The position numbers and the translations under genes were made by a program. Under the pieces are notes generated by a model. That model did no database searches. It was given only the letters and a program-made list of their open reading frames with translations, and had not been told where the DNA came from. 42,493 bases of DNA from IMG/VR virus record IMGVR_UViG_3300030109_003194, positions 7,266 to 49,758 of that record. One strand, given 5' to 3'. Source of the DNA: a virus. Shown piece after piece: positions 2,751 to 41,500 of this stretch; the first letter of the stretch is position 1, and each line of letters opens with the position of its first letter.

Positions 2751-3608
2751 TTACTGTGTTGGTAGTGCTTGAATTTTACTACTATGAGCCACACACAGAA
2801 CTATACGAGCTTCTAGGGATGTTTCGTAAACAGAAAAGCTCGTCGATAAGTCACTAGTTTTGTAGTTTTTAACATGCTGTTTTATCTTCTTTATAAGGGA
2901 CGTATCCTCTAAAAGGTCTTGTTTCGGTATCCCATAATAAAAGTGGATGTCCGTAGCCTTTGCCAGTGGAAATAGTAGATTTATACTTGCACCCTCTTCC
3001 TCTATGGAGGAGGTTCCCAAAGTTACTATTCTTGAAATATTAGAAGGCTGGATCTTGTTTGCCAAGACTGGCTCTGTGTGTGTAAAGTAGTTTATCATAG
3101 CTAAAACATAAGCAACAAAATAAGAAACTGACTTTTCATATTCGCTGATAGAGACATCACCTATTAATTGATCTAGTGATGGCTGATTTACTAAGAATAT
3201 GCTTTCCAGCACCCCACTTCGAGCATATTCTTGAAGAATATTGTAACATATCTTGTCATCTCGTTTGCGAATTTCTGATATCATCTCTCTGTCGGGGCAT
3301 AAATATAAGACACTTAAGTTGGCATCCTTGATCGTTTCTAGAATCTTAAGAGTAGTGCCGGAAACTGGATCGCCGCCCTCTACAATCAAAAGGACATCAT
3401 CATCTTGCTTGATGGACCTTAGGTAAACCGAGACTTCATCTTGGTCTAAGCTCTGTTCGTAGTTATCGATTGACTTCTGAGGGTCTAACCTAAGAGTGCC
3501 CCGCTCATCGATACCGGCACCAATTTTATAAATTCTATATTCCGGGTATGCCGTTAGCTCTTCTGCTACAGAGCAACCAAGTTTCCCTAAACCTATAACT
3601 TTATCCAA
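2751..3608 (-). CDS. Degenerate tubulin/FtsZ-superfamily protein
   Basis: A 285-aa protein with the layout of an FtsZ/tubulin GTPase domain but a degraded active site. Visible landmarks are a glycine loop IGLGKLGCSV at 5-14 (T1), a hydrophobic strand then VEGGDPVSGTTLKIL at 76-90 in the place of the GGGTGSG T4 loop, a following strand with LYLCPDRE (T5 region), a helix and FLVNQPSLDQL at 138-148, a long central helix, and TEPVLANKIQPSNISRI at 178-193 where the T7 loop should be. The acidic T7 residues that catalyse GTP hydrolysis in FtsZ seem replaced by Gln/Ser/Asn. The start is TTG 3608, overlapping the polymerase end by 8 bases, with GAGGG upstream. It may cap, regulate or co-polymerise with the intact homologue at 35.6-36.8 kb. 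The family call comes from motif order and is less sure than for that gene. Confidence 0.65.
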   Translation of the reverse strand: MDKVIGLGKLGCSVAEELTAYPEYRIYKIGAGIDERGTLRLDPQKSIDNYEQSLDQDEVSVYLRSIKQDDDVLLIVEGGDPVSGTTLKILETIKDANLSVLYLCPDREMISEIRKRDDKICYNILQEYARSGVLESIFLVNQPSLDQLIGDVSISEYEKSVSYFVAYVLAMINYFTHTEPVLANKIQPSNISRIVTLGTSSIEEEGASINLLFPLAKATDIHFYYGIPKQDLLEDTSLIKKIKQHVKNYKTSDLSTSFSVYETSLEARIVLCVAHSSKIQALPTQ

Positions 3609-4821
3609 CCTTTATATCCCTCAAGGATCCTAATGTTTTGCCTTTTTTTATGTTTACCAAAAAATCGCCAAAGTTGGTCGTGCTCATCAACGCAACCAAT
3701 GACTTAAGTAGGTTTTCATCCTCTTTTTTCATATCAATGATAACCGCATCGTGAATAAGAAAAGCTAAATGAGACCCTGCCGAGCGGGTTCTTAATAGAT
3801 GCTCTATCTTTAGAGCCTGTTTTAGAGTCAATTCTGCGGCGGTTGATTGAACCAAGTAGTTCAGAGCGTGATGCTCGCTGGCGTCGCTTATCTTCTTTCT
3901 AAATGGCGTTGTAACTGTGTTACCATCCCAACATTCTTTGAGTAAGTTATCTTTTTCGTAAAACTCCTCTAACTTTGACGTCTCTTCTGAGTTTGCTGCT
4001 CTTTTTGAGCCATACAGCCACGCAAAAAATGCTACCTTTGCTTGGGCTCTTGTGCTTATACTCGTAAATATCTCATTTAGGTGAAAATCATGAACGTCAC
4101 CTTGGGGTTGTTGTTTTCCGAGGAGCCCCAGGAGGGTACGCACCTCTGCCCCGTTAAAATCTAATTCAATAAAGTAGTCATTCTGTGGTTTGATCGCTGA
4201 ACGGAATTCTTTACTCATCGTAAGAATTGGCACATAGCCATTTTTAGTAGTTAAGCGACCGGTCTTTGTGCCAAACTGATTGTATTTGACATATGGACTT
4301 GCTTCTAGAATCTTCTTGGCATGATTCTTTAACTTTGATGAATTGACATACGCAGAGACAACCTGGCGGTCTATAGTCACCTTGTGATGACTAAGGTCTT
4401 CAAGCATCATACACACATGTTTATAAAATTCATACCTATCTGGCTTGGGAACATTATTCGCAATGTGTTGTGTAATTTTATTTTTCACCTCGCAAAACTC
4501 AACCAAGAACCTATTTGGCACTAAGTCAAAGAAACAATTCTCAAATGTATTTACTTGAGATATTGATAAGGATCGTTTGAAAGCATTAATCTTCTTTAGT
4601 ACGTCGTCCCAGTCATCTTTTAGATACTCCGGTATGGTCTCCGAAATGTTCTTACCCTCTAAATAAAGCGATATATATTCCACATCAAGATCCCTAAGAT
4701 AAGAAGAATATTTCCATGTCTTACTTAGGTTGGAAGGAAACTCCTCCATATCAAATACTAAATTGTTGTCAGCGTAAATGCCAACGCATTCGGTCTTATC
4801 GTCAAGTGTTTGAAAAATCAA
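3601..4821 (-). CDS. Short family A DNA polymerase (polymerase domain only)
   Basis: Template-directed DNA synthesis. From the chosen start (406 aa) the family A motifs appear in order: KTGRLTT at about 186-192, motif A LDFNGAEVR at about 220-228, motif B RAQAKVAFFAWLYG at about 258-271, a VQSTAAELTLKQAL helix, and motif C HDAV at about 357-360. Both metal-binding aspartates and the motif B lysine are kept, while the usual Glu of HDE is Ala. At about 400 aa it is far below T7 polymerase (about 700) and shows no 3'-5' exonuclease motifs in its N-terminal 170 residues. The start is TTG 4821 with TAGAGG just upstream; an earlier in-frame TTG at 4857 lacks a binding site and would overlap the upstream gene. 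Proofreading, if any, must come from another protein. Confidence 0.85.
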   Translation of the reverse strand: MIFQTLDDKTECVGIYADNNLVFDMEEFPSNLSKTWKYSSYLRDLDVEYISLYLEGKNISETIPEYLKDDWDDVLKKINAFKRSLSISQVNTFENCFFDLVPNRFLVEFCEVKNKITQHIANNVPKPDRYEFYKHVCMMLEDLSHHKVTIDRQVVSAYVNSSKLKNHAKKILEASPYVKYNQFGTKTGRLTTKNGYVPILTMSKEFRSAIKPQNDYFIELDFNGAEVRTLLGLLGKQQPQGDVHDFHLNEIFTSISTRAQAKVAFFAWLYGSKRAANSEETSKLEEFYEKDNLLKECWDGNTVTTPFRKKISDASEHHALNYLVQSTAAELTLKQALKIEHLLRTRSAGSHLAFLIHDAVIIDMKKEDENLLKSLVALMSTTNFGDFLVNIKKGKTLGSLRDIKVG

Positions 4822-4832
4822 TTCAACCTCTA

Positions 4833-6341
4833 CTAACTGGATAAAATTATATCCCAAACATGCGCTAGTGTTAATGGATTCTTATCTAAGGGGCCAATGT
4901 ACTCCTCTTGTAAATACCTTAGTGTCCTTTGATAAGCTGCTTGATCGCCCTCTTTTATAGACAAATTATAAAGATTAAGAAAATCTTGAACTTCTTTCAT
5001 AGCAGCACGAGGATCGGCAGTTGTTTGGCGCTCCATGTTTCGAAGAATATAAAAAGTTTTTAACTTCCACCTGTTGCCGTAAGTTTTTTCAAAGAAATCA
5101 GGTTGAATAATTTTTCTATCGATAGAGAGACTAACAGGAGGACAGGTATGAGTGCCAGAAGTTCTTACAAGAGTTGAAGGTTTCGATGTAACATAGAAGT
5201 TGTAAAAATAGATTAGATACTTTTGAAGGGTTTCGATATCTGAAGACCATGTTTCTCTGTAATCTATCATATACATTATCTCATAGACCAAACTTGGCTC
5301 TTCATTTTCCAAAATAGAGGTCCAATTATCGGCAACACGAGCATCGCCCTCGTTCTTCTTGTATCGAGCATACCCTGGAACTGGCTCTCCATCTGGAATA
5401 GTGTAAAATGCAATGTGCCTTATGACATCCTCAAGACCTGGGATTTGGGAATAACCATAAGCCATTGGTGGGAGTTCATTGCCCTCAATTGCTGGCTTAC
5501 ATATGTAATCATAATCCTGCCCGATGTCAAAACCAACTATGGGCACACCTGTCATATACTCTTGCATCGCAGGACTAGAAATATCAGCGACGAGGCGAAA
5601 GGGTATATTTTTATCAATCATAAATCCGTATTGGGCTACAATATTAGAGACCACATCAAAATTTTCATCTAAAAATTTATAACCTTTGTTGAAGTCATCA
5701 TCATAGTCATCATCAGATATTTCAATAATCAGTCCAGACATATAGTTTGGTGTCCCATAACCCTCAATCATCCCAGATCTGGTTAGGGGTCCTGTTTTAC
5801 TAATAATATTTGTAGAAAACTCATTAAACCTTTGAAGAAATGTATGAAATCCTCTAACCTTAGCATCATTGTTTAAAGATGTCATAAAAGAGTTTGCAAA
5901 GATAGGGTAAACCTCGTTTCTCAAATACAGATCGTAATGATCTTGGAGAGGTTGCCATGCTTTGAATGCTTTAGGGTTCGCCCAAGGACTATCTTTGAAT
6001 ATAATATTTTCTCTAGCTAGTTTTCTTAGTCGTAAAGAAAGGTCGCTCCAAGCATCGGCAACGAAGTTCAAGGCAAACAACTGCTGGTCTGAGTCTCCAG
6101 GGAATCTTAGTGACTTTAGCCTACTTTGATCAGGCACAACTGTGTTACCCTTTGTGTTGACTAGTCCATAAAATCGATCTGTCGTCCAAGTTGAAAAAGT
6201 TTTAGTGTCGCCATGAAATAAGTCAAAGAGAGCCTCGTACCTCTTCCGCTCATTAAATATTTGTTTTGCCTTGAGACTATTCGAACCGTAAGAATATACA
6301 CCTGCGTTTGCAAGGGGATTTGTTCTTGGTTGCCTTGTCAT
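4833..6341 (-). CDS. Probable virion/baseplate protein of unknown function (502 aa)
   Basis: I do not recognise a family. It is a soluble 502-aa protein rich in aromatic and acidic residues, with an Asp cluster (SDDDYDDDFNKG, about 209-220) and no signal peptide or membrane segment. Its ATG overlaps the stop of the upstream 1072-aa gene as ATGA, implying translational coupling. It is the last gene of the tail/baseplate block, just before the replication genes, so a baseplate or tail-tip role is the best contextual guess. Large size and single-domain appearance would suit a wedge component, but nothing in the sequence proves it. Confidence 0.8.
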   Translation of the reverse strand: MTRQPRTNPLANAGVYSYGSNSLKAKQIFNERKRYEALFDLFHGDTKTFSTWTTDRFYGLVNTKGNTVVPDQSRLKSLRFPGDSDQQLFALNFVADAWSDLSLRLRKLARENIIFKDSPWANPKAFKAWQPLQDHYDLYLRNEVYPIFANSFMTSLNNDAKVRGFHTFLQRFNEFSTNIISKTGPLTRSGMIEGYGTPNYMSGLIIEISDDDYDDDFNKGYKFLDENFDVVSNIVAQYGFMIDKNIPFRLVADISSPAMQEYMTGVPIVGFDIGQDYDYICKPAIEGNELPPMAYGYSQIPGLEDVIRHIAFYTIPDGEPVPGYARYKKNEGDARVADNWTSILENEEPSLVYEIMYMIDYRETWSSDIETLQKYLIYFYNFYVTSKPSTLVRTSGTHTCPPVSLSIDRKIIQPDFFEKTYGNRWKLKTFYILRNMERQTTADPRAAMKEVQDFLNLYNLSIKEGDQAAYQRTLRYLQEEYIGPLDKNPLTLAHVWDIILSS

Positions 6342-30009: not shown

Positions 30010-30826
30010 CTGAGTTGTACTCTCTTGTTAGATTTTGAAGCTTAAGAATTTTCAATATTTCTTTGTCTCCAATCTTAGAAACATTCATTGATTGTATTCT
30101 TTCAAGGACCTTTTTAGTATTTGTAACCATATCTGCATCTTCTGCTACATCTTTCAATGTCAAAGACTTAGACACACTTTCATAAATTCTTTTTAGCTCA
30201 CTACCCACAAATAATCTAAAATCTGCCCTGGATTCGTCAAATGAACTTACATATTTATTTAGAAGCTCTTTTTGTTCTGTAAACAAATTATCATAAGCTT
30301 CGTTAAAGTTGTCTGTAAACGATCTAACAACCAGAGAATCAATTGACTTCATGTCTTCTTTGGTTTCTTCTTTTTGATCTACTAGTCTCTCTATGATTTT
30401 CTGCTCCATGAGAACTCTTGTCTTAACTGGCATTCTATTACCGAACAGTTGACTAATTGAAGCAAGAGACTGATAGTTTGGAACGAAGTTGTTGTAAACC
30501 TCTTTACTCAAATTTTTATTTATTTTTGAGATAACTTTAGACTGTTCTTCAAATATCTTTTGTTGGTCCAAGTCCTCATAGGATTTTTTGGCACGAAACA
30601 CTAACTTTTCGGCTGTATATTTATCTAATCCAGACTTATTACTAAGGGCTTCATAACAATCAAGTTCACGCCCCAAGATACTGCTAGAGCGAAAATGCTC
30701 TTTCAATATTGATTTTATCAATGATGTCTTTTTCTTATTCTTTTCGATAACAGTTTTAGTCAATTCCTTAACCAGAGCCTCAAATAAAAAGGCGGTGTTT
30801 CTTTTTTTGTTATGCTTGACCTTCAT
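29999..30826 (-). CDS. Helical unknown protein in prohead cluster (275 aa)
   Basis: A nearly all-helical, basic-then-acidic protein of 275 aa with long coiled-coil-like stretches (for example around FEEQSKVISKINKNLSKEV). It overlaps the portal gene by 17 bases, indicating translational coupling. The T4 counterpart position is occupied by prohead core proteins gp67/gp68, and a helical core component would fit, but the sequence is too divergent for a confident match. Confidence 0.78.
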   Translation of the reverse strand: MKVKHNKKRNTAFLFEALVKELTKTVIEKNKKKTSLIKSILKEHFRSSSILGRELDCYEALSNKSGLDKYTAEKLVFRAKKSYEDLDQQKIFEEQSKVISKINKNLSKEVYNNFVPNYQSLASISQLFGNRMPVKTRVLMEQKIIERLVDQKEETKEDMKSIDSLVVRSFTDNFNEAYDNLFTEQKELLNKYVSSFDESRADFRLFVGSELKRIYESVSKSLTLKDVAEDADMVTNTKKVLERIQSMNVSKIGDKEILKILKLQNLTREYNSDAN

Positions 30827-32690
30827 CTTTTGTTTCCAATTGCTCTATTAAGCGCTTAATGTTAAACTGAGTCTCGAAAATTAATTTCTCGTCAGATTGT
30901 TGACCTTCTCCAACCGTTCCCCTGGATAAAGGAGCCATTTGACCGTTCCATCCTTTAAATAGGTTTCTCTGAGAGGAGGATGCCAAATTAATGCCAGTCT
31001 TTGATAACTCACTGCGACGGCGAGCGCCTTGGCTCCACTTAGGACTCTTGACTCTCATATATCCATTGTCGTCTCGTTGTCCTGGCTCAGCGTCCGGTTC
31101 GGCAAGAAGAGGTCCTTCATCGGCTGGCTCGTCACCGCCTGCTTCATCTCCGCCTTCAAGGTCACCACCTAGATCACCACCTAGGTCACCACCCAGGTCA
31201 CCGCCGGCATCGCCGCCTTCAGGTGCTGTGCCAGCTTCTTCAATAGCAGCGCCTTGTAGGGCATCTGTATACTGCTCGATTTGAATTCTCTCAATATCCT
31301 CTTCAGCAATCTTAAAGATGTTCCGATAGACCCACTGCTTAGAGAAGTAACCATCAGTTGCTGAACCGGCAACATCGAACTTGACTCTCATATGCTCCAA
31401 CTCTTGCAGTTCTGCAATCTTAGATGGATTGTTTAGGGACAACTTGAAAGACAACAAATCACTTTCTCGATATCCCAAAGTGTAAAGGTGAATAATACAT
31501 ATTTTCTCAAGCTCGGCAACAACAACACGTTGAAGTCTTTGAATGGTACGAGCGAAGCGGATATCCTTTTGGGATAAAGTTGTCTTATCCTCCTGTGCAT
31601 CAGATTGAGCCAGGTATGCTTTGGGTACTTTAAGTGCCGAAAATAACTTATCTCTGAGGTAATTAACATCATCTATGTCGCCTGTGAACTGTCCGCCTGC
31701 TAGCGTCTCAATACGAGTATTGTTAGATGCGCCTCTTACCGGTATATAATAATCCTCATCAATACTCATAGCATTGTAGCGTAAATCAACTCGACCAGAG
31801 TCTTCGTTCACTAGTTGGTTTCGCTTCATTTGGGTCTTTACTTGTTCAATGTATTGTTCCACATCCTCTGCTGCTATATTACCAACGTCAATGTAGAATA
31901 CTCGTCGTTCTGGTGAGCGAACAATACGATAAGCCATCATCGCATCCTCTAGGAGAGTAAGCTGTCGCCAAATGCGTCGAGATGGTTCAAGAACTGAAGT
32001 GCCGTAGGGAACGTACTTGTCATTGCCAAGAACTCGAAAGTGAGATACTTGCCAGTTTTCAAAAGTTACACCTTTTTTACCCTCAGCACTTTGCCAAAAA
32101 TATTGGATATAATTCGGATTGGTTGAATCGGCACCCTCAATGCGCTCCACTTCCCTAACTGGCAACGGAATTACGTTTGTAATCCCCATTTTATCGTCAA
32201 TATCTAGATAGAGATAATAATCACCATACTTACACATACTACGAGACCAACCAAACAAATTAGACTCAACATTAAGAACACTGTATAGCAAAGTATCTAA
32301 GATATCTTTTATCTCTCTATTTTGACAATCGATATTTACCAAAGGATTGAAAGCAGTAGAGGTTGTAATCTCGTCGGCATATATGTCAATTGCAGATGCA
32401 ATCTCAGGCATGTACTCCATCTGTTCAAAATCAGTATATCGAACCTGCTTGTTACGCTGGTACAATACTTTATTATTCATATCTCCAAATGGGTTGTAAT
32501 ATTCTTTTTTCTTGAACTCACGCCCAGTTGAAGATGTGAAAGTGTACTTTTTAATATCACGACGATTAGTACGCACCACAGCGGGTCGGTCATAGTCAAC
32601 GATGGGTCCGCTAAATAATCGAGTTAGACGCCTAAATAAAGCCGACTGATTATTACGAGGATTGTTTGCGTTATTATTATTTTCAGCCAT
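30810..32690 (-). CDS. 20: Portal protein (gp20-like)
   Basis: Dodecameric ring at the DNA entry vertex. In 626 aa the gp20 core is evident: EYYNPFGDMNNKVLYQRNK, MPEIASAIDIYADEITT, then LVNIDCQNREIKDIL, RSPERRVFYIDVGNI and FTGDIDDVNYLRDKLFSALK with VPKAYLAQS. T4 gp20 is 524 aa; the extra length is a Gly/Asp/Glu-rich C-terminal linker (about residues 490-550) containing four near-identical GGDL units, followed by a basic, Ser/Arg-rich end. ATG 32690 follows the terminase stop by 3 bases. The linker is unusual for portals. Confidence 0.95.
   Translation of the reverse strand: MAENNNNANNPRNNQSALFRRLTRLFSGPIVDYDRPAVVRTNRRDIKKYTFTSSTGREFKKKEYYNPFGDMNNKVLYQRNKQVRYTDFEQMEYMPEIASAIDIYADEITTSTAFNPLVNIDCQNREIKDILDTLLYSVLNVESNLFGWSRSMCKYGDYYLYLDIDDKMGITNVIPLPVREVERIEGADSTNPNYIQYFWQSAEGKKGVTFENWQVSHFRVLGNDKYVPYGTSVLEPSRRIWRQLTLLEDAMMAYRIVRSPERRVFYIDVGNIAAEDVEQYIEQVKTQMKRNQLVNEDSGRVDLRYNAMSIDEDYYIPVRGASNNTRIETLAGGQFTGDIDDVNYLRDKLFSALKVPKAYLAQSDAQEDKTTLSQKDIRFARTIQRLQRVVVAELEKICIIHLYTLGYRESDLLSFKLSLNNPSKIAELQELEHMRVKFDVAGSATDGYFSKQWVYRNIFKIAEEDIERIQIEQYTDALQGAAIEEAGTAPEGGDAGGDLGGDLGGDLGGDLEGGDEAGGDEPADEGPLLAEPDAEPGQRDDNGYMRVKSPKWSQGARRRSELSKTGINLASSSQRNLFKGWNGQMAPLSRGTVGEGQQSDEKLIFETQFNIKRLIEQLETKDEGQA
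31160..31207. repeat. Four 12-bp tandem repeats coding GGDL
   Basis: Four adjacent 12-bp units, GGTCACCACCTA and close variants on the plus strand, within the portal gene. They encode the GGDL units of its acidic linker and probably arose by slippage; copy number could vary between strains. Confidence 0.8.
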
Positions 32691-32693
32691 TTA

Positions 32694-34265
32694 TTATCCT
32701 TTAATGATCCAGTTTAGATCATGTTGTTTTCCGTCTATACCTTTAAAAGTTTGCTTCTGAGGTTTATAGCCGTGTTGTCCTTCTATTTTAGTATTCATTG
32801 ATGTGGTAGAAACAGACATACTAGATAGTAACGCCATTTTGTAATCTGCCTCCCGTTTATTAGCTGTCAAAGCTGTATCCCTTACCCAACACCCTATACA
32901 AGCTGCAATAACAAGATCGTCATTGTAACTACGCATGGCTTGTGGTCTTCCATTGTGCCATACAAATGTTTTAATCTCATTAGCAAGACGCATAGAATTA
33001 ATAGTAATTAGTTTATTTCTCACGAATTCTTCAAACTTAGCAATAACAAGTGGTCGAGTTTTCATAGACATGGTAAACCCTGCAACGCCGCCAAGAGACT
33101 GTGCTGTGACTTCATCCACATATTCATGTGTTGATTTTATACTATAATAAAGATTTTTATAATCTAAATCCTGAAGTCTGCTAAGTACTCCTATGCCAAG
33201 AGAGTTATTTTCTATGATTAGCAAAGCATTATTATATTCTGAGGCTATTGAGTGAAGGAGCGGTGCAAACATATCCGGGGTTATCTTTCCTTGATATTCT
33301 GCTACTTGCTCCATGGTCTCAACCTCAAAAGCATGAGCAACACTATAATCAGATCCGTCACCTCGGGCAACGTCCGCAACTAATATATAATCACGATGTG
33401 GTTCAGGCTCTTTCCAAATCCAATAATTTCTATCAAAACCTGTCTTGTGAGAAGGTTCATAAGCACCATCAAGGATTTTCTTCAGATCATCACCATGTAC
33501 TACAGTATCGCCCGAGGCGTTAAAATTACATTCAAGTTCTTGAGCGATCTCACGGCGAGACATATTTCTAGTCTCCTTAGAAAACCAGTCGTTATCTCTC
33601 TCTGGGTGAACGTTCCATGGTAGTTTTATGGTGTGGAAATCATTCTTATTCTCCTCAGCTTCAGTATAAGTTTTATGAAACCAATTACCAACACCATTCG
33701 GAGTTGACAAAGCAATACACCGACCACCAGTAGAAAGTGTAGGATACAAGCCAGCCCACAGTTCGTCAATACCATCAACAAAGGCGGCCTCATCAATTAC
33801 CAAAAGAGACAATGCTTCTGAACGACCTGCATCGCCTGAAGTTGAAGAAGCTTTTACTTGAGACCCATTAGACAATTCAAAAGAATTTCGGTTATCAATA
33901 GCTATGTCAGATATTTTAAGCCAGGAAGGCAAGTTCTTGTGAATAGCCTTAATCTTTTTCACAAGATTGGCGGCGGTGCCAAGCTTGGTTGCCACCACTA
34001 AAACATTCTTATCCTTGTGGAAGAGCATCATCCAGCACACATAAGCGGCAACAGTGGTAGAGATACCTAACTGACGAGCCTTCAAGATGACACTGAATCT
34101 GTTCTCTTTAAAGTCTTGCAAAGCTTCCTCTTGAAAATCATAAAGATCAAAAGGTATAGAACCCCTCATGGGGTGTGAAATTTTTGCGTACTTTTTACAA
34201 AAGAAGGCAGGATCTTTACCGCAGCGGACTATCTCCGCCATCATTTCCTTCTTATTGAGAGCCAT
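32694..34265 (-). CDS. 17: Terminase large subunit (gp17-like)
   Basis: ATPase and nuclease that packages DNA into the prohead through the portal. In 523 aa: Walker A KARQLGIST at 62-70, Walker B LLVIDEAAF at 154-162, coupling motif ALSTPNG at 185-191, and a C-terminal RNase H-like nuclease with DVARGDGSDYS around 298-308, LIIENNSLGIG around 349-359 and YNDDLVIAACIG near the end. Length and motif order match T4 gp17 (610 aa), slightly shorter. ATG directly follows the stop of the upstream gene. No separate small terminase is recognised, though the upstream gene is a candidate by position. Confidence 0.96.
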   Translation of the reverse strand: MALNKKEMMAEIVRCGKDPAFFCKKYAKISHPMRGSIPFDLYDFQEEALQDFKENRFSVILKARQLGISTTVAAYVCWMMLFHKDKNVLVVATKLGTAANLVKKIKAIHKNLPSWLKISDIAIDNRNSFELSNGSQVKASSTSGDAGRSEALSLLVIDEAAFVDGIDELWAGLYPTLSTGGRCIALSTPNGVGNWFHKTYTEAEENKNDFHTIKLPWNVHPERDNDWFSKETRNMSRREIAQELECNFNASGDTVVHGDDLKKILDGAYEPSHKTGFDRNYWIWKEPEPHRDYILVADVARGDGSDYSVAHAFEVETMEQVAEYQGKITPDMFAPLLHSIASEYNNALLIIENNSLGIGVLSRLQDLDYKNLYYSIKSTHEYVDEVTAQSLGGVAGFTMSMKTRPLVIAKFEEFVRNKLITINSMRLANEIKTFVWHNGRPQAMRSYNDDLVIAACIGCWVRDTALTANKREADYKMALLSSMSVSTTSMNTKIEGQHGYKPQKQTFKGIDGKQHDLNWIIKG

Positions 34266-34838
34266 TTATCCCTCTGGTGTTTCTGGGTTCTTTTTAGCCT
34301 TGTCGTTGGATGGTCTTTTGTCGGAAGACTTTTCAAGGAAATCAACAAATTGTTTATGATAGTCTTTGTTGCGACGATCCGCAGAACGTTCTGAACCCAT
34401 GCGGACAGCTTCGACGTCATCAAAACCACCAATCGCATACTGTTTATTAGCTTGGACCCAAGTATGATTCCTGGATGTGGTCTGAACTAGAATGTCCGCA
34501 TCGGAATCCTCCGTCAAGGTCACACTGGTTTTTGTAATATTTTTATATTCTTTTTTCAGAAACTTGACAATATCACCAAATTTAGCATCAATCTCGTTCT
34601 CAAATTGATTACGAGGATGCAATTCATTGACTCTCATTTCGCTCTGGTATGTTATCACCATTTTCGGTCCTGCGAAACGAACCTTGAAGCCATCAATCAC
34701 ACGGCTGTCGATAATTGGATGCCCCTCTTCTCTGCTCAATCCAACTTGGAGAGCTTCTCCGTTTTCATCCAAAGCGCCATCATAAGTATTAGCAGCAGCC
34801 TGATTCAAACCTTTAATTACGTCTAGGACAGTAGCCAT
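34266..34838 (-). CDS. Unknown protein adjacent to large terminase (190 aa)
   Basis: No family recognised. It has an alpha/beta core (DSRVIDGFKVRFAGPKMVIT, FLKKEYKNITKTSVTLT) and a charged C-terminal tail rich in Lys, Ser and Pro. It occupies the place of the small terminase (gp16) immediately upstream of gp17, but it does not show the long coiled coil expected of that family, so I leave the role open. It overlaps the upstream stop by one base (TAATG). Confidence 0.78.
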   Translation of the reverse strand: MATVLDVIKGLNQAAANTYDGALDENGEALQVGLSREEGHPIIDSRVIDGFKVRFAGPKMVITYQSEMRVNELHPRNQFENEIDAKFGDIVKFLKKEYKNITKTSVTLTEDSDADILVQTTSRNHTWVQANKQYAIGGFDDVEAVRMGSERSADRRNKDYHKQFVDFLEKSSDKRPSNDKAKKNPETPEG

Positions 34839-35254
34839 TATTTTCTTCTCCTTACAGCATAGTCAACATGCTCTTGTGTGGGTCGTTTGCCAGATTTCCA
34901 ATCATCTTCTCTACCTATAACAAAATCTAGATAGCAAGCATGGCAGCAATTAAACCTATTCATATATAGGTCGTCCTTCCTGGAAAATGAATATGTTTTA
35001 CAGACGGGGCAAGTGCGGTCCTGATTTTGTCTGCTTCGGCGTTTAGTAATCCTTATGTCACCAACAACAATCTCTTCTTTCGTTGCAGAAAGTTTATCAG
35101 TCTTTTTGCGTAAGCCTTTCAATTGCTTTAGATATTCCTCTTCTTTATCTTCTTCCCATTCGTTACGGAAGTCTTGTACGGTATCTTTCCCATATTTTTC
35201 AGCGATCGCTTTTTCAACTGATGCTACATAATTTAGGTCTTTTTTTGTACTCAT
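34838..35254 (-). CDS. Zinc-ribbon-like small protein (138 aa)
   Basis: An acidic helical N-terminus (NEWEEDKEEEYLKQLKGL) precedes a cysteine cluster, CPVC at 82-85 and CCHAC at 103-107, suggesting one zinc site, then a WKSGKRPTQEHVDYAVRRRK tail. The start is ATG 35254, which overlaps the previous stop as ATGA and has CAGGGG before it; the longer frame to 35353 lies inside the upstream gene and is rejected. A DNA- or protein-binding role near packaging genes is possible. Confidence 0.8.
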   Translation of the reverse strand: MSTKKDLNYVASVEKAIAEKYGKDTVQDFRNEWEEDKEEEYLKQLKGLRKKTDKLSATKEEIVVGDIRITKRRSRQNQDRTCPVCKTYSFSRKDDLYMNRFNCCHACYLDFVIGREDDWKSGKRPTQEHVDYAVRRRK

Positions 35255-35631
35255 TGCCCCTGATAAACCGCCTTTACAATAGCTACAGATGTACCCACAC
35301 CAATAACAAGCCCTGACAAGATACCTAAAGTACCCTTGTTTCTTACAAACCAAGTATTGTCTTGTTTTATTTTTGCCTCAAGTTGAGAGATATAATACTT
35401 GTAAGACCCCTCTGTTTTAGCGCAAACTTTGCGGTCCACACTACATTCAGCAATTTTAGCGTTGGTGGCTATTTTATTTTGTAGCAGTTTTCGAAACTCT
35501 GCTTCGCTGAGTAGTATCCCAACATAGGTGTCAGAACCTTCATCAACCACCGCTGGTCGAGGTTTGAACTCAGTGACCTCGCCAGCAGTAGCGCCATGAG
35601 AAAACAATAATATTATAACCAGTAATCTCAT
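35251..35631 (-). CDS. Membrane/exported protein downstream of FtsZ-like gene (126 aa)
   Basis: Signal-peptide-like N-terminus (MRLLVIILLFSHGATAGE), a charged, probably helical middle (about 40-90) and a C-terminal hydrophobic segment GTLGILSGLVIGVGTSVAIV at about 99-118, ending in KAVYQGQ. That topology would place the middle in the periplasm, tethered to the inner membrane. Unimolecular spanins have a comparable plan but carry a lipobox, which is absent here. Its ATG is one base after the FtsZ-like stop, so a partner of that cytoskeleton is another possibility. Confidence 0.75.
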   Translation of the reverse strand: MRLLVIILLFSHGATAGEVTEFKPRPAVVDEGSDTYVGILLSEAEFRKLLQNKIATNAKIAECSVDRKVCAKTEGSYKYYISQLEAKIKQDNTWFVRNKGTLGILSGLVIGVGTSVAIVKAVYQGQ

Positions 35632-35632
35632 T

Positions 35633-36769
35633 TTACTTCTTCAGGAACTTCTTCAGACCTTCGATTCTTTTAGCTGGTCTTTTGAGCCCACTCACCAATG
35701 TATAAGTGATAAGCTTGTCTTTCTTATCGTCTTCATAAATACCACGATGAACCATGGCACCGCCGGTCAAAGCAGCCAAGGTATCAAAGCCGAACTCAAT
35801 GTTGTCCATCAAACCGACAGTCTCTTCAAAGATTTCTTCGCTACCAACGACGATGCAAGCAGCGCCCGTAGCTGTCGTAAGGTCAAAGCCTTCAGCGAGA
35901 AGTGTTTTCTCTAGGTTCTTCTTGAGAGCACTTGAGACAGCAGTTTCGTTCTCAAGGTTCTTGACGCTAGTAACACCCATAATCATACAGCCTGGTTGCT
36001 TCATAATACTGTCGTAGTCTGTGGCATCAAAGGTTGTGTACTCCGAGTCTTGGTTTGCCAATATGTTAAATACGTGGAACAATCCAGCCACTGTATTGTT
36101 GATGGTAGTCCAGAACTTCTTGACTGTAAGTTTTGGATACAATCTTTTAATCTTCTCGTTATCCACCATAATAAGGGGAGCAATCTTCCCTTTTTCTGCG
36201 AGCCCGCAAAGTTGGGTAATCCGAGCATGAGCGTTCTTGGCTACCGTTGGAGAAGCCGATTCACCAGCAGTTGGGAGAGAAGCAATGACACCAACACGTT
36301 CATCAACGTTCTCAACGCCGATATAGGTGAAATACTTCTTGGCTACTTTGATAAGGGTATTGACTGTACCGCCACCAGAACCGCCTGATACACCAAGACA
36401 AATCAAGATGCGGTCAACATTGGTTCCAAAAACTTCACGAAACTTGTTAAATACTTCTTGTTCCTTGCGTTCAATAGCCGCTTCGGCTTTGGCTTGGTCT
36501 TTGCCAGCACCTTGTTCGCCATGCTCATCGACTAAGAACTTTTGTTCTTCTGGGATACCTAACCCATTTAAGTCAGATCGGGCAGTATTAACTGCGACTG
36601 TTTTTGTATAACCCATATCATAAAACGCTTTAGCCATACGTCCGCCGCCTTGACCTGCACCAACAATAGCATATGTCAACGCACCGCCTGACTTATCCTC
36701 AACCGTTTCCTTTTCCTCATTGAGGTCTGGATCGTAATCTTCAATGTCTAGTGTAGGGATATCTACCAT
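35633..36769 (-). CDS. FtsZ/tubulin-superfamily GTPase (cytoskeletal protein)
   Basis: Predicted filament-forming GTPase. The 378-aa product keeps the landmarks in order: T1 loop VGAGQGGGRMAKAF at 36-49, T3 VNTARSDLNGL at 60-70, the tubulin signature equivalent LGVSGGSGGGTVNTL at 125-139 (GGSGGGT in place of GGGTGSG), T5 region SLPTAGESASPT at 164-175, VDNEKIKRLYP at 202-212, and T7 loop TTFDATDYDSIMKQPG at 245-260 with acidic residues retained. An acidic extension of about 30 residues precedes the fold; a basic C-terminal tail follows (KRPAKRIEGLKKFLKK). Known phage tubulins (PhuZ, TubZ) position DNA or capsids, but this looks closer to FtsZ. It is flanked by membrane-protein genes. Confidence 0.92.
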   Translation of the reverse strand: MVDIPTLDIEDYDPDLNEEKETVEDKSGGALTYAIVGAGQGGGRMAKAFYDMGYTKTVAVNTARSDLNGLGIPEEQKFLVDEHGEQGAGKDQAKAEAAIERKEQEVFNKFREVFGTNVDRILICLGVSGGSGGGTVNTLIKVAKKYFTYIGVENVDERVGVIASLPTAGESASPTVAKNAHARITQLCGLAEKGKIAPLIMVDNEKIKRLYPKLTVKKFWTTINNTVAGLFHVFNILANQDSEYTTFDATDYDSIMKQPGCMIMGVTSVKNLENETAVSSALKKNLEKTLLAEGFDLTTATGAACIVVGSEEIFEETVGLMDNIEFGFDTLAALTGGAMVHRGIYEDDKKDKLITYTLVSGLKRPAKRIEGLKKFLKK

Positions 36770-36782
36770 TTTACTAGTCTCC

Positions 36783-37097
36783 TTATAAATCTAGTTCTTC
36801 ATGCATTCTTATTAGAGCTTTCAGTCTTTCTTCACGATCTTGTATTTCTTTTGTATCTTCAAGTTTTTTATCGTAAATCTTTTTGATTGCTCCAATTTTA
36901 TCTTTTTCTAGTGTAGCACGAATTTCATTTTCTTTAATAGCTGTGTAAACCTTTGTTTGCACGCCTTCCATAAACTTAGCCTTATTCTCTGTTGGTCGAA
37001 TAAGATTATAAAGAAACCAAAGTATGCCGGCAGCTAATACTACGAAAGATACCAAATACCACATACTGTTCTTTAGCTTATACCAAAGTTTTTTCAC
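36783..37097 (-). CDS. Single-TM coiled-coil protein, i-spanin-like or FtsZ-like partner (104 aa)
   Basis: N-terminal membrane helix (about residues 13-34: WYLVSFVVLAAGILWFLYNL) followed by a highly charged coiled coil to the end (for example EIRATLEKDKIGAIKKIY). This is the usual plan of an inner-membrane spanin subunit, and its GTG start overlaps the holin stop as GTGA. However, it also lies 13 bases before the FtsZ-like gene, so it may instead anchor that protein to the membrane. No matching outer-membrane lipoprotein is nested in it; the Cys-rich lipoprotein at 38.1-38.6 kb is a possible partner. Confidence 0.78.
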   Translation of the reverse strand: MKKLWYKLKNSMWYLVSFVVLAAGILWFLYNLIRPTENKAKFMEGVQTKVYTAIKENEIRATLEKDKIGAIKKIYDKKLEDTKEIQDREERLKALIRMHEELDL

Positions 37098-37279
37098 TTA
37101 CCGTGTCTCCAGGTGGCAGCGATATCCGCAGCACCTTGCAGTCCTATGTAGGCTAAAGATACCGCAACCCAGTCGCTGCTAGTTACTGAACCTGCTGCTA
37201 AAAAAGCGGTGGAAGTGCCCCAGACAATTAATTTCCTCGAAGCCCACTTTCCTAACCATTTATCTATTTTTTGCTGCAT
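37094..37279 (-). CDS. Probable holin (61 aa, two TM segments)
   Basis: A small membrane protein with two hydrophobic stretches (about residues 17-33 and 37-56) separated by a short SSDW turn and with a basic start and end. T4-type and other phages have holins of this size and the pattern SRKLIVWGTSTAFLAAG...DWVAVSLAYIGLQGAADI is familiar for such proteins. Holins time lysis by forming inner-membrane holes. Its strong AGAGGAGGT site lies in a 10-bp hairpin three bases before the ATG, which could restrict early translation. An endolysin is not in this window. Confidence 0.75.
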   Translation of the reverse strand: MQQKIDKWLGKWASRKLIVWGTSTAFLAAGSVTSSDWVAVSLAYIGLQGAADIAATWRHGK

Positions 37280-37282
37280 AAC

Positions 37283-37309
37283 AATTATACCTCCTCTTTA
37301 GGTATAATT
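37283..37309 (-). promoter_or_regulatory. Hairpin enclosing the holin ribosome binding site
   Basis: AATTATACCT (37300-37309 read on the minus strand) and AGGTATAATT (37283-37292) form a perfect 10-bp stem with loop AAAGAGG. The Shine-Dalgarno AGAGGAGGT is split between loop and 3' arm, three bases before the holin ATG at 37279. Folding would mask part of the site, a plausible device for delaying lysis. The TATAAT in the stem has no -35 partner, so I do not read it as a promoter. Confidence 0.7.
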
Positions 37310-37511
37310 AGTTCTTCCTGGATCTTTTAGCTGCTTTGTGTAGTTGTATATTCTCGCCACGGATCCTATATTGCCTTCCTTCAAACAAAACCGAACCTAC
37401 TTTGGATAGAGTGCTGTACTCCAACAATAGACCAACTCTCCAGTCTGTGTATTCTTTAGGGTCAACGTGCCAAGTACACTCCCTAAACCTAACTAAGTCT
37501 CCAGCCCTCAC
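37308..37511 (-). CDS. Tiny GDLV protein A (67 aa)
   Basis: A small probable beta-barrel (SH3/KOW-like) protein starting MRAGDLVRFRE, with WRVGLLLEYST, VGSVLFEGRQYRIRG and a basic Lys/Arg tail (KAAKRSRKN). GTG 37511 overlaps the preceding stop as GTGA. The neighbouring protein has the same start plan; both could bind RNA or proteins, but no role is known. The last base pairs of its gene overlap the arm of the holin hairpin. Confidence 0.72.
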   Translation of the reverse strand: MRAGDLVRFRECTWHVDPKEYTDWRVGLLLEYSTLSKVGSVLFEGRQYRIRGENIQLHKAAKRSRKN

Positions 37512-37705
37512 GCTCTAGAAATTACCACTAAATCTTTTTCGTGAACTTCATACGCCCCGACGAGACCATGGTTGTATTCCCAATCTTCAGTACACCACTG
37601 AACAACCCAGTACTTTGGTGTCGGGTGCTTTGCTGTGATAAGACCATAGCCGCCTGATCCTTTTTTATCAAAAAGATTAGTTTGTACCAAATCGCCTGGC
37701 TTCAT
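37508..37705 (-). CDS. Tiny GDLV protein B (65 aa)
   Basis: Starts MKPGDLVQTNLF, then GGYGLITAKHPTPKYWVVQW, and ends LVVISRA; a small beta-barrel is likely. It overlaps the TudS-like gene by 29 bases in another frame, so the start at ATG 37705 is accepted mainly because of the GDLV start and the clean downstream frame. It is probably a paralogue or analogue of protein A. Confidence 0.65.
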   Translation of the reverse strand: MKPGDLVQTNLFDKKGSGGYGLITAKHPTPKYWVVQWCTEDWEYNHGLVGAYEVHEKDLVVISRA

Positions 37706-38150
37706 ATTTTTTCACTCTCTGTAAAAATGTTTCTTGGTTTTGTCTTGATATCATTGAACTAATCTCAGTTGTGGGACATTCTAAAGACTGGTGCATGGGT
37801 GCCTTCATGGTGGATCCACGATCCTTTACCCCTACAGATAACCCACAAGATGGTGAATTAGAAATACCTATAAACCCCACCACATCTTCATATCTTTTTG
37901 ATAATTCTTCGCATTTTTCTTTTAGTTTGGAATAAACATTTTCTTTTCCCATAATTGCCAAAACTTCGTCATCTTTTTGACGTAGCCTAATTGACGCTCT
38001 GGGCGTTCCAAAGAGTTCATGCTCTGGGCATATGGGAACCAGTTCAAAATTGTTATCAGAAGCCCACATTTTTATCTCCTTGTTTATTCTACTAGTTCCG
38101 TTCCACCTGACATTCTCTCCAAACACACAGGCGCTGATTAATATTTTCAC
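37677..38150 (-). CDS. DUF523/TudS-like Fe-S protein (157 aa)
   Basis: Matches the DUF523 family, to which the thiouracil desulfurase TudS belongs. The three conserved cysteine motifs are present: ISACVFGENVRWNG with C8, VPICPEHELFGTPR with C41, and GISNSPSCGLSVG with C102. In TudS these bind a [4Fe-4S] cluster that removes sulfur from 2-thiouracil; the true substrate here is unknown, and thio-modified nucleotides or tRNA fragments are speculation. At 157 aa it is the usual family length. It starts at GTG 38150, overlapping the lipoprotein stop as GTGA. Phage examples seem uncommon. Confidence 0.82.
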   Translation of the reverse strand: MKILISACVFGENVRWNGTSRINKEIKMWASDNNFELVPICPEHELFGTPRASIRLRQKDDEVLAIMGKENVYSKLKEKCEELSKRYEDVVGFIGISNSPSCGLSVGVKDRGSTMKAPMHQSLECPTTEISSMISRQNQETFLQRVKKYEARRFGTN

Positions 38151-38581
38151 TCTTTTTTGAAACCCTCAAAATAATAAACTGACTCACAAATATAAGGAAA
38201 GGACGAGTTTACTGCCTGAAGACGCAGGGAACCAAACACGACATCAGGGCGGTCTTGGTGACTGGAAACAATCCAATCCAGTTGCATTTCCCAAAACCCA
38301 GCGTCGTTACAATCAAAGGTAGTACGGGTTGTACAACTATTGGCTTCCCATTGGCTAGTATTTAAAGAACACCCAGCCCTGTCATCTGGGGGGAGTGGCG
38401 CTCCGTCGGTAATTATAGTATCTACGGTTTCCCACACTCTACCGCAATCACCGCCGTGTTCTGCTAGGTGTAGGGTGTAGTAGCCGTTTTGTGTATCTTG
38501 CCCGACAGCGCAGTCTCGCTCTTCAGCGTCTCCACACGCAGCTAATAATATAATACAAGCAGCAATTTTATTGACTGACAT
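38147..38581 (-). CDS. Cys-rich lipoprotein (144 aa)
   Basis: Signal sequence MSVNKIAACIILLAACGD with lipobox LAAC, so a lipid-anchored, exported protein after cleavage; several more Cys (in RDC, GDCG, GCS, SCTT, DCND, ICES) suggest disulfides in the periplasm or outer membrane. The start ATG 38581 overlaps the SbcCD end by 14 bases and gives the normal signal peptide; a longer start at 38611 does not. No lysin or enzyme motif is recognised. It could be an outer-membrane spanin-like partner, a superinfection-exclusion protein, or cargo from a host genome. Confidence 0.75.
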   Translation of the reverse strand: MSVNKIAACIILLAACGDAEERDCAVGQDTQNGYYTLHLAEHGGDCGRVWETVDTIITDGAPLPPDDRAGCSLNTSQWEANSCTTRTTFDCNDAGFWEMQLDWIVSSHQDRPDVVFGSLRLQAVNSSFPYICESVYYFEGFKKE

Positions 38582-41500
38582 AAGCATAACCATCTTGACG
38601 CTCAATGTCAATAGTCATATCGGCAATATCTTTGAGACTATCCAAGTGAGTAATCAAAAGCACAGTCTTGTAGTAGCCCTTAATCATTTCCATCACTCGC
38701 ATAAAGCCTTCAAGGTTCTCAGCGTCCAACGCTGTGCCTGGCTCATCCATAATCATAATGTCTGATTTTGGTAAGGTTGACACATTGGTTAGGGCAATGC
38801 GAATGGCAATCGCTGCCAGCGTCTTCTCTGCTCCAGAAGCCATCTCTAAAGGTCGTGCTTCGTACTTTGGATGCTTGATGAAGATATCTAACTTATTCTT
38901 TTCTGCCTCAAAGAAAATCTCGAAGTCGGTGACGTTAGAAAGAACAGTACTGACCTCATCATTGATAAGAGGGAGCATCCGCTTCACCACATCATAACTG
39001 ATACCGTTGCTGTGAGTACAACGCATAAACAAGTCATAGGCTGAATACTCTGTGCGGAGATCTTCTAGCTCCTGCTTCTTCTCTTGGAGATTAATGATCT
39101 GCTGCTCAATGCCGCCATGCTGCTTGATGTAATCCATAATCTTAGCTTCACAGATAGAGAGTTCATTTTCGGTCAGAAGTTTTTGCTCAGCTAAATCAGA
39201 CTGTTCTTGAATAAGTCCTTCACGGTTTTCAATAGCCTCTCGGTTATCTTCATAGATTTGAATCCGGTCGGAAGCAGTTTTGATATCATTAGTGAGCGTA
39301 TTAATTTCGTTGTTTGTTTTTTCTACAAACAAGTCGAGGTTGGTTGTCTCGGCTGACAAAGCTCTCTGCTTCTCTAGAAGTTTTTCGTGTTTTTCCTTTT
39401 GAGAACGTAAGCTATCAACATTCATTTCTTCTAGCTGCTGGTTGTATTGTTGTAGCTCTGTCTCAAGATTATGGATTGTGATACGAACCTCAGTAAGCTT
39501 GGACTTACTTTTATAGGCATCCTTAATAAACTTACAGTGAGAAAATTCTGGTCCGCATGGAACTTCTCCCAGGAGCTTAACACGCTTCTCGTAAGTTTGC
39601 TTGTTACGGTTCTCAAGCTTAAGGGTGGTCTCCAATGTCCTAACTTCTTCTTTTATGGCTAGGACTTCAGCAATCTGAGACTCAAGGGCTATATTATCAT
39701 ATTCTCCTAAGAAATCGTCTATTTTGGTTAGCTTTTCTAGAAGTATTTCCTTCTTCTTTTGGGCTCCCGCAACTCGAAGATCGCAGTCTTCTAGTTTAGC
39801 GGTAGCTTTAGTGAGGCGCTTGCTCTCCTTCTTGATGCTGATAATCTCAACAGGAGCGGACGCAAAGAGGCTTTCTATTTCATCGACACGGGCAGTAATT
39901 TTGTTTAACTTGTTCTTAAACTTTTTACAAGCCTTCTCTTGTTTTGTCTTTTCTGTCTCGTTATTCTCTAGTTGACTACTAAGTGTAACAATATCGTCAT
40001 CAAAGGTATTATCCTCTAGTTTTTTAAGCAACGCACGGGTCTCAATGCTGTCGCCCTTAGCAAGCTTGAACTTCTTGTCGAATTGGTCAAGATCTAAAAA
40101 CTTAGCTAGGATCTCCTTACGCTTGGTTGAGCCCTCGTTGATGAAAGTCATCGCACCCATCTGACTAGACATACTTGTAAGCAAGAAGTCGTCAAGGCTT
40201 CCAAAGATCTTGCGAATAGCCTTGTCGGTTCCATTGCGATCTAGTGAGTTCAGACTGACTGGCTCGTTGGTTGCCGGGTCAATCATAGTAAACTCTACAT
40301 CAGTCTTAGCCTCTTCGGTCTCTTCGCCGTGAAGCTTCTTGGTATACTTTTCCGACTTGCGCTCGATGATATAAGTCTTACCAGCAATATCAATCTCAAC
40401 TCGACCGCTAGCAGCAGGCTTGTTCTGATTAATCATATTCAAGTTCTTGCGAGTATTCTTACTGATAGAGTTATAGACCGTATAAAGCATACTATCAATA
40501 ACAGAACTCTTACCTGAATAGTTCTTACCGAAGATACCGACAACCCCGTTGAGCTTTTCAAAGTTTACAGTATTACCTTCTCCAAAGTTGAAGAGGTTGC
40601 TGAACTCCATCTTCTTCAAAGCCCAGTTTACATTACGCATACTGGCATCTTCGCCATTGACCCGAGCATCATAGCGTGAGTTAAGCTGGAATACTTTCTC
40701 TAGGGTCTTAGTATCAGGTTCATATTCTTTTAAGTATTCCCGAATAAGTCGCTCTTGAACAGCGGGGTCTCGTAAGTTCTCTGTGCTACCAAGATCATCG
40801 ACATCCACACTAGAGCGTTTTAGTCCTGCCTTGTTCACGAATGATAGGCTCTCGGGCTTGAATTTGCTCTTGGCGGTATCCATCACACGGCGGATCTTGT
40901 CTAGGGATACCTTGTGATGAGTAACGATACGCAGACGACAACCCTGTTGGATGTCTAGATTACGTGGCATATTGCCTTTAGGCGTAAGCTCGATTGTAGT
41001 GAATGGCTTGGGGTTTTTCAGAACGTGATGACTAACCTCATAGTTAGTCTTGTCCTCAATATCCCAGATCAAAAAGCCCTTGTCGTTTGTCTCGCCGTGG
41101 TTTTGCTGGATAGTAGAACCACAGTAACGAATTGTACCCGTATCGTTGAGGCACTGATTAGTCTTGTGGATATCTCCAAGGAACGCATAGTCAAATTTAT
41201 CAAAGACCGCTACATCGTGGTCGCCGTGGTCCATAATCCAACCGAGGTCGGTTCGGCTGTTGTTCACTGCTCCATGGTACAGAGCGATATTGATGCGATC
41301 AGCATCTGTTGGATCGGTCCAGTTGGTTTCATCAAAGACCGATAAGACATTTAGTGTAACGTTATGATCTAATTTTACTTCCCCTGCAAACTTATGTAGG
41401 TGAAGGTCTGGGTGTTCTAAGGCATCAACGATTGGAGTGATAGCGTCTTGACGACTGCTGTTTCGTAGGTTGCCGTCGTGGTTCCCAAGGATGATATGAG

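Follow-up and report, generated by a model that had tools for sequence, protein, structure and literature searches.

Phage tubulins are known above all for their service to the "phage nucleus." What role, then, could a tubulin play in a phage related to T4? The question is raised by a gene in a 42,493-nt stretch (hereafter the window) of a 61.6-kb virus record (IMG/VR IMGVR_UViG_3300030109_003194). The features of this locus are listed in table 1; the product of the gene is referred to as P0001.

Table 1. Features of the tubulin locus and of P0001 (positions are those of the window)
Feature	Position	Strand	Basis or remark
TubZ-like tubulin/FtsZ-superfamily GTPase (P0001)	35633..36769	-	378 aa; profile and structure matches
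N-terminal acidic extension, residues 1-32, motif IPxLxIEDYxPD	36674..36769	-	Alignment; residues 1-19 predicted disordered
T1 loop GAGQGGG, residues 37-43	36641..36661	-	G37, G39, Q40, G42, R44 invariant in 37 members
T3-loop region GEQGAGK, residues 84-90	36500..36520	-	G87, A88 invariant in 37 members
T4 tubulin signature GVSGGSGGGT, residues 126-135	36365..36394	-	G129, G130, G132, G134 invariant
T7 loop TTFDATDYDSIM, residues 245-256, catalytic-type D248 and D251	36002..36037	-	Alignment, 37 members
Short basic C-terminus KRPAKRIEGLKKFLKK, residues 363-378	35636..35683	-	Stops where TubZ runs on into functional tail
61-aa holin-like membrane protein	37094..37279	-	Best holin match E = 0.41
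104-aa protein, N-terminal TM helix, charged helix, conserved C-terminus REERLKALIRMHEELDL	36783..37097	-	Upstream partner, clade 1
126-aa protein, signal peptide (no lipobox), ectodomain with YVGILLSEEDFRK-type motif and two Cys, one C-terminal TM	35251..35631	-	
Putative zinc-ribbon protein (CPVC...CCHAC)	34838..35254	-	Sequence reading; conserved in G001-G004
190-aa conserved protein between tubulin cassette and TerL	34266..34838	-	Possible small terminase, by position only
Large terminase (TerL, T4 type)	32694..34265	-	phrog_2, E = 2.2e-53
Portal protein (T4 type)	30810..32690	-	phrog_213, E = 4.3e-75

Identity and Fold of the Tubulin

The open reading frame starts with ATG and comprises 378 codons with zero internal stops. 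P0001 matches the Pfam families PF00091 (Tubulin; E = 1.6e-8, 35.5 bits vs. a gathering score of 33) and PF22453 (TubZ-like_C; E = 7.1e-7, 29.7 bits vs. 26). At E ≤ 0.001, these two families are matched by 37 and 21, respectively, of 37 aligned tubulin family members, which range down to ~27–30% identity with P0001. The closest solved protein is plasmid TubZ (4ei7; phmmer, E = 3.6e-11), followed by FtsZ and CetZ, and the profile of the 37 members retrieves the same TubZ with E = 9.6e-37. An AlphaFold2 model based on the 37-member alignment (pLDDT 89.8, pTM 0.89) replaced an earlier one from a shallow alignment (pLDDT 76.7); disorder is confined to residues 1–19. With this model as query, Foldseek ranks Bacillus TubZ (2xka) on top (E = 2.8e-22, TM ~0.76), then CetZ and FtsZ. 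The open reading frame, the two Pfam families, the TubZ matches, and the predicted tubulin fold bear out the first-pass annotation, which had described an intact FtsZ/tubulin-like GTPase in a T4-related phage and had named profile search and structure prediction as checks. It is near certain that P0001 is a GTPase of the tubulin/FtsZ superfamily, and, as judged by its C-terminal domain and modeled fold, it is of the TubZ type.

No PHROG family matches P0001. Among predicted viral structures, its best match is A0A6J5RW92 (E = 2.1e-26, 26% identity), a protein of an uncultured Caudovirales phage known from its annotation alone ("FtsZ Cell division GTPase"); it probably belongs to the same large family. 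PhuZ-type proteins rank lower. FtsZ and archaeal CetZ share the fold (TM-score to target 0.7–0.8) and the T7 DxxD motif with P0001, but identity is only ~20%; orthology with FtsZ was rejected, as TIGR00065 scores 46.9 bits vs. a cut-off of 295.2. Bacillus phage G gp138 ("putative FtsZ-like") is a member of the same superfamily (21% identity, E = 8e-6), whereas it has a long basic C-terminal tail, lacks the N-terminal extension, and falls into a separate tree group. The exact tree position of P0001 relative to FtsZ and PhuZ was discarded, the branches being too long to trust.

PhuZ and TubZ had both been named as precedents at the outset, and only the second holds for P0001. PhuZ, which centers the phage DNA by three- or five-stranded filaments, is likewise a phage tubulin with a GTPase domain, and a filament is presumed for P0001 too. 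However, the PhuZ C-terminal family, represented by PF22334 and PHROG 4733, both of which are matched by phiKZ gp39 (PhuZ), has no match in P0001, and PF22334 is matched by 0 of the 37 family members. Membership in PhuZ was rejected on these two grounds and on the missing chimallin and multisubunit RNA polymerase (msRNAP) described below.

Nucleotide-Binding Loops and Termini

The T1 and T3 loops, the tubulin signature, T5, and the acidic residues of T7 had been read from the P0001 sequence; all are present and conserved across the 37 divergent proteins. In P0001, the T3 region extends to GEQGAGKD, T5 reads SLPTAGE, T6 VDNEK, and T7 FDATDYDSIM, with a DxxD as in FtsZ. Invariant positions comprise GxGQxGxR in T1, GA in the T3 region, GGxGxG in T4, the P and E of T5, DN in T6, and an asparagine in H7. 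D248 is found in 37 of 37 members and D251 in 36, the remaining one having E. As the T1–T6 loops and the T7 acidic residues are conserved over 37 proteins, GTP binding and hydrolysis, initially considered plausible, are expected, and P0001 is probably an active GTPase.

Plasmid TubZ (RepX/TubZ of Bacillus, 4ei7/2xka) is the best profile and fold match and shares PF22453 and intact GTPase loops with P0001, but the two are only ~20% identical and differ at both termini. In TubZ, filament geometry and the binding of partners depend on a C-terminal tail (PMC5322520). By alignment and model, P0001 has no such flexible tail: the chain ends shortly past the last helix, and the partner-binding tail of TubZ is therefore missing. 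The tail is absent from the main tubulin group, and a long basic one is retained in phage G and the L281/L284 group. At the other end, most members carry an added acidic/proline motif: IPxLxIEDYxPD in clade 1, IPDLPLEDFEPD in clade 2, and (M/L)PDIxxPxP in clade 3. The N-terminus is altered (MTIDLDIPE) in loci L032, L066, L070, and L076. Partner binding may have been taken over by the N-terminal motif.

A Far-T4-Like Phage with No Sign of a Nucleus

The description of the genome as T4-type holds: profile searches identified in the window T4-type TerL, portal, protease, major capsid protein (MCP), tail tube, UvsX, and gp32, as well as a tail-sheath domain and a family-A DNA polymerase domain, and the lineage lies on the Far-T4 side. 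By TerL and MCP, the nearest named phages are Flavobacterium phage immuto, Microcystis phage Mel-JY01, and a 484-kb uncultured phage; Rhodothermus phage RM378 is also among the nearest by MCP. No tubulin above cut-off was found in immuto, Mel-JY01, or the 484-kb phage, with phage G as positive control; the gene was therefore gained in the window lineage or lost in those phages. Three larger relatives, G001 (190.5 kb), G002 (178.6 kb), and G003 (171.9 kb), have the same gene order around the tubulin.

A direct search of GTDB genomes retrieved no clade-1 tubulin. Two of the three largest relatives carry tmRNA genes (L192:11108-11430 in G002, tag ANDDFQLALAA; L201:4098-4423 in G003, tag ANDDFEMEMAA), and a degenerate pattern covering both tags, used in a host search, had no match in GTDB genomes. 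Other Far-T4 phages have been linked to Bacteroidetes (PMC7198788, PMC13037479). By analogy with these phages, Bacteroidetes may be the hosts, and the Far-T4 literature hints at an aquatic habitat; we take both as leads only.

These genomes show further particularities. In the window (3601-6341), the family-A DNA polymerase domain is limited to a 418-aa ORF lying beside an unassigned 502-aa ORF, and G001 has an apparent DnaE-like polymerase (51346-54762). A DUF523/2-thiouracil desulfurase-like gene (window 37677-38150; PF04463, 1.7e-18), near an SbcCD-like fusion gene, occurs in some relatives only. By sequence reading, G001 (L177, L178, L184) also encodes an apparent S-adenosylmethionine synthetase (49643-50605), IMP dehydrogenase (59988-61028), GroEL-like chaperonin (67798-69384), and RseP-like membrane protease (186403-187206). 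A ~20-kb run of genes in G001 (120295-140796; L181, L182) that read as glycosyltransferase or nucleotide-sugar genes, most without a G002 counterpart, resembles a recently acquired surface-glycan cluster. Many small proteins of G001 (1-1159 and 177676-190017) have common N-termini, such as MKITKSQLRQLIKEE or MKKLLTEWRKFLKE, which look like a recurring signal, either for targeting or as a propeptide, and may mark internal proteins of the head.

Chimallin (phrog_4795) was absent from G001–G004 and G006–G016, several of these records being fragments, and the phage msRNAP profile had no match in G001–G004 and G006; phiKZ was positive in both controls. As far as profiles can see, the tubulin family therefore shows no sign of a phage nucleus, although a shell of sequence unrelated to chimallin would escape such a search.

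A Core Gene under Extreme Purifying Selection

More than 80 IMG/VR contigs carry tubulin copies 83–100% identical to that of the window. We examined the best 80 contigs by terminase similarity, 55 of which extend at least 1.4 kb upstream of TerL. The tubulin is present in 54; the 55th stops ~40 nt into the expected place, which makes 54 of 54 testable contigs. The tubulin thus belongs to the core gene set of this clade of uncultured Far-T4-like phages. By contrast, PhuZ is accessory, being present in 66.2% of chimallin phages (PMC10299810).

Identity to G001–G004 is 90–98% for the tubulin, 79–91% for TerL, 69–85% for the portal, and 60–83% for the MCP. Among window genes with a computable dN/dS, the tubulin has the lowest value (0.013–0.033), compared with 0.051 for TerL, 0.046–0.10 for UvsX, and 0.16–0.21 for the MCP, these values being rough because synonymous sites are saturated in many pairs. 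The tubulin pN (0.011–0.063) is also among the lowest. Judging from these substitution rates, the tubulin is under extreme purifying selection.

Membrane and Packaging Genes around the Tubulin

At most clade-1 loci, a gene ending 11–14 nt before the tubulin encodes a protein of 104–109 aa with an N-terminal TM and a conserved C-terminal helix, for which neither Pfam nor PHROG gave a convincing family match. A short lysine-rich protein replaces it in loci L025, L031, L032, L037, L066, L070, and L076. On the other side, at almost every clade-1 locus, the gene of the 126-aa protein, also without a Pfam or PHROG family match, begins 1 nt past the tubulin. Beyond it lie, in order, the genes for the putative zinc protein, the 190-aa protein, TerL, and the portal, so that the tubulin is on the same strand and in the same gene run as the packaging genes. 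The first-pass annotation had placed the tubulin next to lysis-type genes. Small membrane proteins do adjoin it, but their lysis identity is not established: the tubulin neighbors gave no convincing match to PHROG lysis families. A scan for promoters and terminators gave a signal near chance.

A second large lineage has the order TerL, a 640–690-aa protein (portal-like by inspection, without a PHROG match), tubulin. A homologue of the 640–690-aa protein is encoded in 45 of the best 80 loci, with a gap of at most 60 nt to the tubulin in 31 of them. The T4 MCP and portal profiles have no match in three contigs of this lineage (G007–G009), and its TerL is 28% identical to that of the window over a patch only. 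Tubulin and packaging genes are therefore associated in both lineages, each with a gene order of its own. It is not universal, since clade 2 places the tubulin among glycosyltransferase-type and other genes, away from the packaging block, and locus L318 near UvsX/gp32. Proximity to the terminase is also circumstantial, as late genes cluster anyway. The terminase/portal module is nevertheless a more telling genomic partner than the membrane neighbors.

Spread of the Tubulin among Phages

Clade 2 tubulins are 65–69% identical to that of the window. A 66% identical copy belongs to an otherwise unrelated phage; in clade-2 phages such as G006, the only matches to the window phage besides the tubulin are RecA, at 24% identity, and an enzyme of sugar-nucleotide metabolism. 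The sharing of such a tubulin by phages with almost nothing else in common indicates that the gene moves. The head-region genes of G006 (L204–L206) have no Pfam match, and its presumed terminase (469 aa) matches neither Pfam nor annotated phages; G006 apparently represents an undescribed tailed-phage lineage.

According to a profile search that started from phage G, at least 286 IMG/VR viral stretches encode tubulin relatives, the close clades included. Three family queries were run against 50,697 annotated phage records; two found phage G only and the third none. One query also retrieved nine distant TubZ-like proteins from plasmids of Bacillales. We found no description of this tubulin family in the literature searched, whose coverage is partial, and no mention of FtsZ or tubulin in the Far-T4 literature examined. 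A clade-universal tubulin of TubZ type, apparently nucleus-free, with a rearranged tail and packaging synteny, is a variant of the known phage tubulins and TubZ.

Possible Roles of the Tubulin

Of the roles initially envisaged, the placing of DNA or capsids has the best support, from the packaging synteny and from the precedent of PhuZ, whose filaments carry capsids to DNA (PMC10299810, PMC13282480); the mechanism itself is inferred. We give a nearly even chance to GTP-driven filaments that would place capsids or DNA for packaging late in infection without a nucleus. P0001 would assemble GTP-driven filaments, either treadmilling or dynamically unstable, late in the lytic cycle; these would move capsids or replicating DNA, by pushing or carrying, and thereby bring proheads and genomes together for packaging. 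The tubulin would do the job that PhuZ performs around the phage nucleus, but in a phage devoid of one. Contacts with partners would be made through the N-terminal acidic/proline motif instead of a C-terminal tail as in TubZ, and in clade 1 the membrane proteins on either side may give the filaments an anchor or an orientation. A filament system for capsids or DNA is the best fit because the GTPase is self-sufficient, extremely conserved, located in a late-gene block beside the terminase, and transferred between unrelated phages. Polymers that have many contact faces are typically conserved to such an extreme degree.

Type III tubRZC systems are found on Bacillus plasmids and a Clostridium prophage-plasmid. 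As plasmid TubZ is the closest in C-terminal domain and fold, the filament might similarly segregate phage genomes maintained as a plasmid-like episome or in pseudolysogeny. We consider this unlikely. Unlike plasmid TubZ, P0001 is encoded in a phage late-gene block and no tubR-type gene adjoins it, its neighbors being membrane, zinc-type, and packaging proteins; a membrane-protein gene takes the upstream place of a tubR-sized DNA-binding gene, whereas three of the four plasmid relatives fetched have a 102–112 aa ORF directly upstream. No tubC-like repeats or iteron array was found at 34200-38700, which contains two-copy short repeats only, and a classic TubRZC partition system was rejected on both counts. 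The tail with which TubZ binds TubR-tubC is missing, and the genome looks lytic: it has genes for the virion, packaging, and replication, and the regions scanned revealed no integrase. The shared superfamily and the membrane proteins flanking the tubulin in clade 1 could instead point to host division as the target, the tubulin coassembling with or poisoning FtsZ, or forming a ring of its own that blocks or reshapes division. This is distinctly improbable: identity to FtsZ is ~20%, no FtsZ-type C-terminal conserved peptide was seen, the intact catalytic loop and the extreme conservation are more readily reconciled with a filament that assembles by itself than with a poison, and in an arms race against a host target, so many phages would hardly be expected to carry near-identical copies.

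The conserved three-gene unit of N-TM protein, tubulin, and signal-peptide/C-TM protein would also suit a membrane-anchored scaffold acting with its flanking proteins at the envelope, in membrane shaping or the timing of lysis. In lineage 3, a lipoprotein gene downstream of the tubulin has a weak match to Rz-like spanins (E = 0.0026). However, the flanking proteins match no lysis family convincingly and evolve much faster than the tubulin (dN/dS 0.156 for the upstream gene), and clade 2 and several clade-1 loci lack them or have others in their place, so that we doubt this role about as much as partition. The filament could finally serve a nucleus-like shell unrelated to chimallin. In jumbo phages, tubulin is found together with HSP60 and msRNAP (PMC7824862), and the apparent chaperonin of G001 would fit such a DNA compartment, but neither chimallin nor phage msRNAP was found by profile and there is no direct evidence of a shell, which makes this organizing role very unlikely.

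A Cytoskeleton Outside the Phage Nucleus?

In the material searched, the status of the tubulin as a clade-core gene with the lowest dN/dS, its mobility, its relatives in at least 286 viral stretches, and its adjacency to the terminase in two lineages are new. More tentatively than the placing of capsids or DNA by filaments, we propose that a large, horizontally exchanged, TubZ-derived family may constitute the cytoskeleton of many aquatic phages without a nucleus, essential to packaging or capsid trafficking and with a switched architecture in which an N-terminal partner motif is present and the C-tail is lost. Nearly all work on phage tubulins concerns jumbo phages that form a nucleus, in which PhuZ can be dispensed with, or else a small number of plasmids and plasmid-prophages. 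If the proposal is true, cytoskeleton-guided virion assembly would be common among phages and not peculiar to Chimalliviridae. A clade-universal, terminase-linked tubulin that evolves more slowly than the other window genes and is shared with unrelated phages suggests that filament-guided assembly may be older and more common than has been assumed, and possibly essential without a nucleus.
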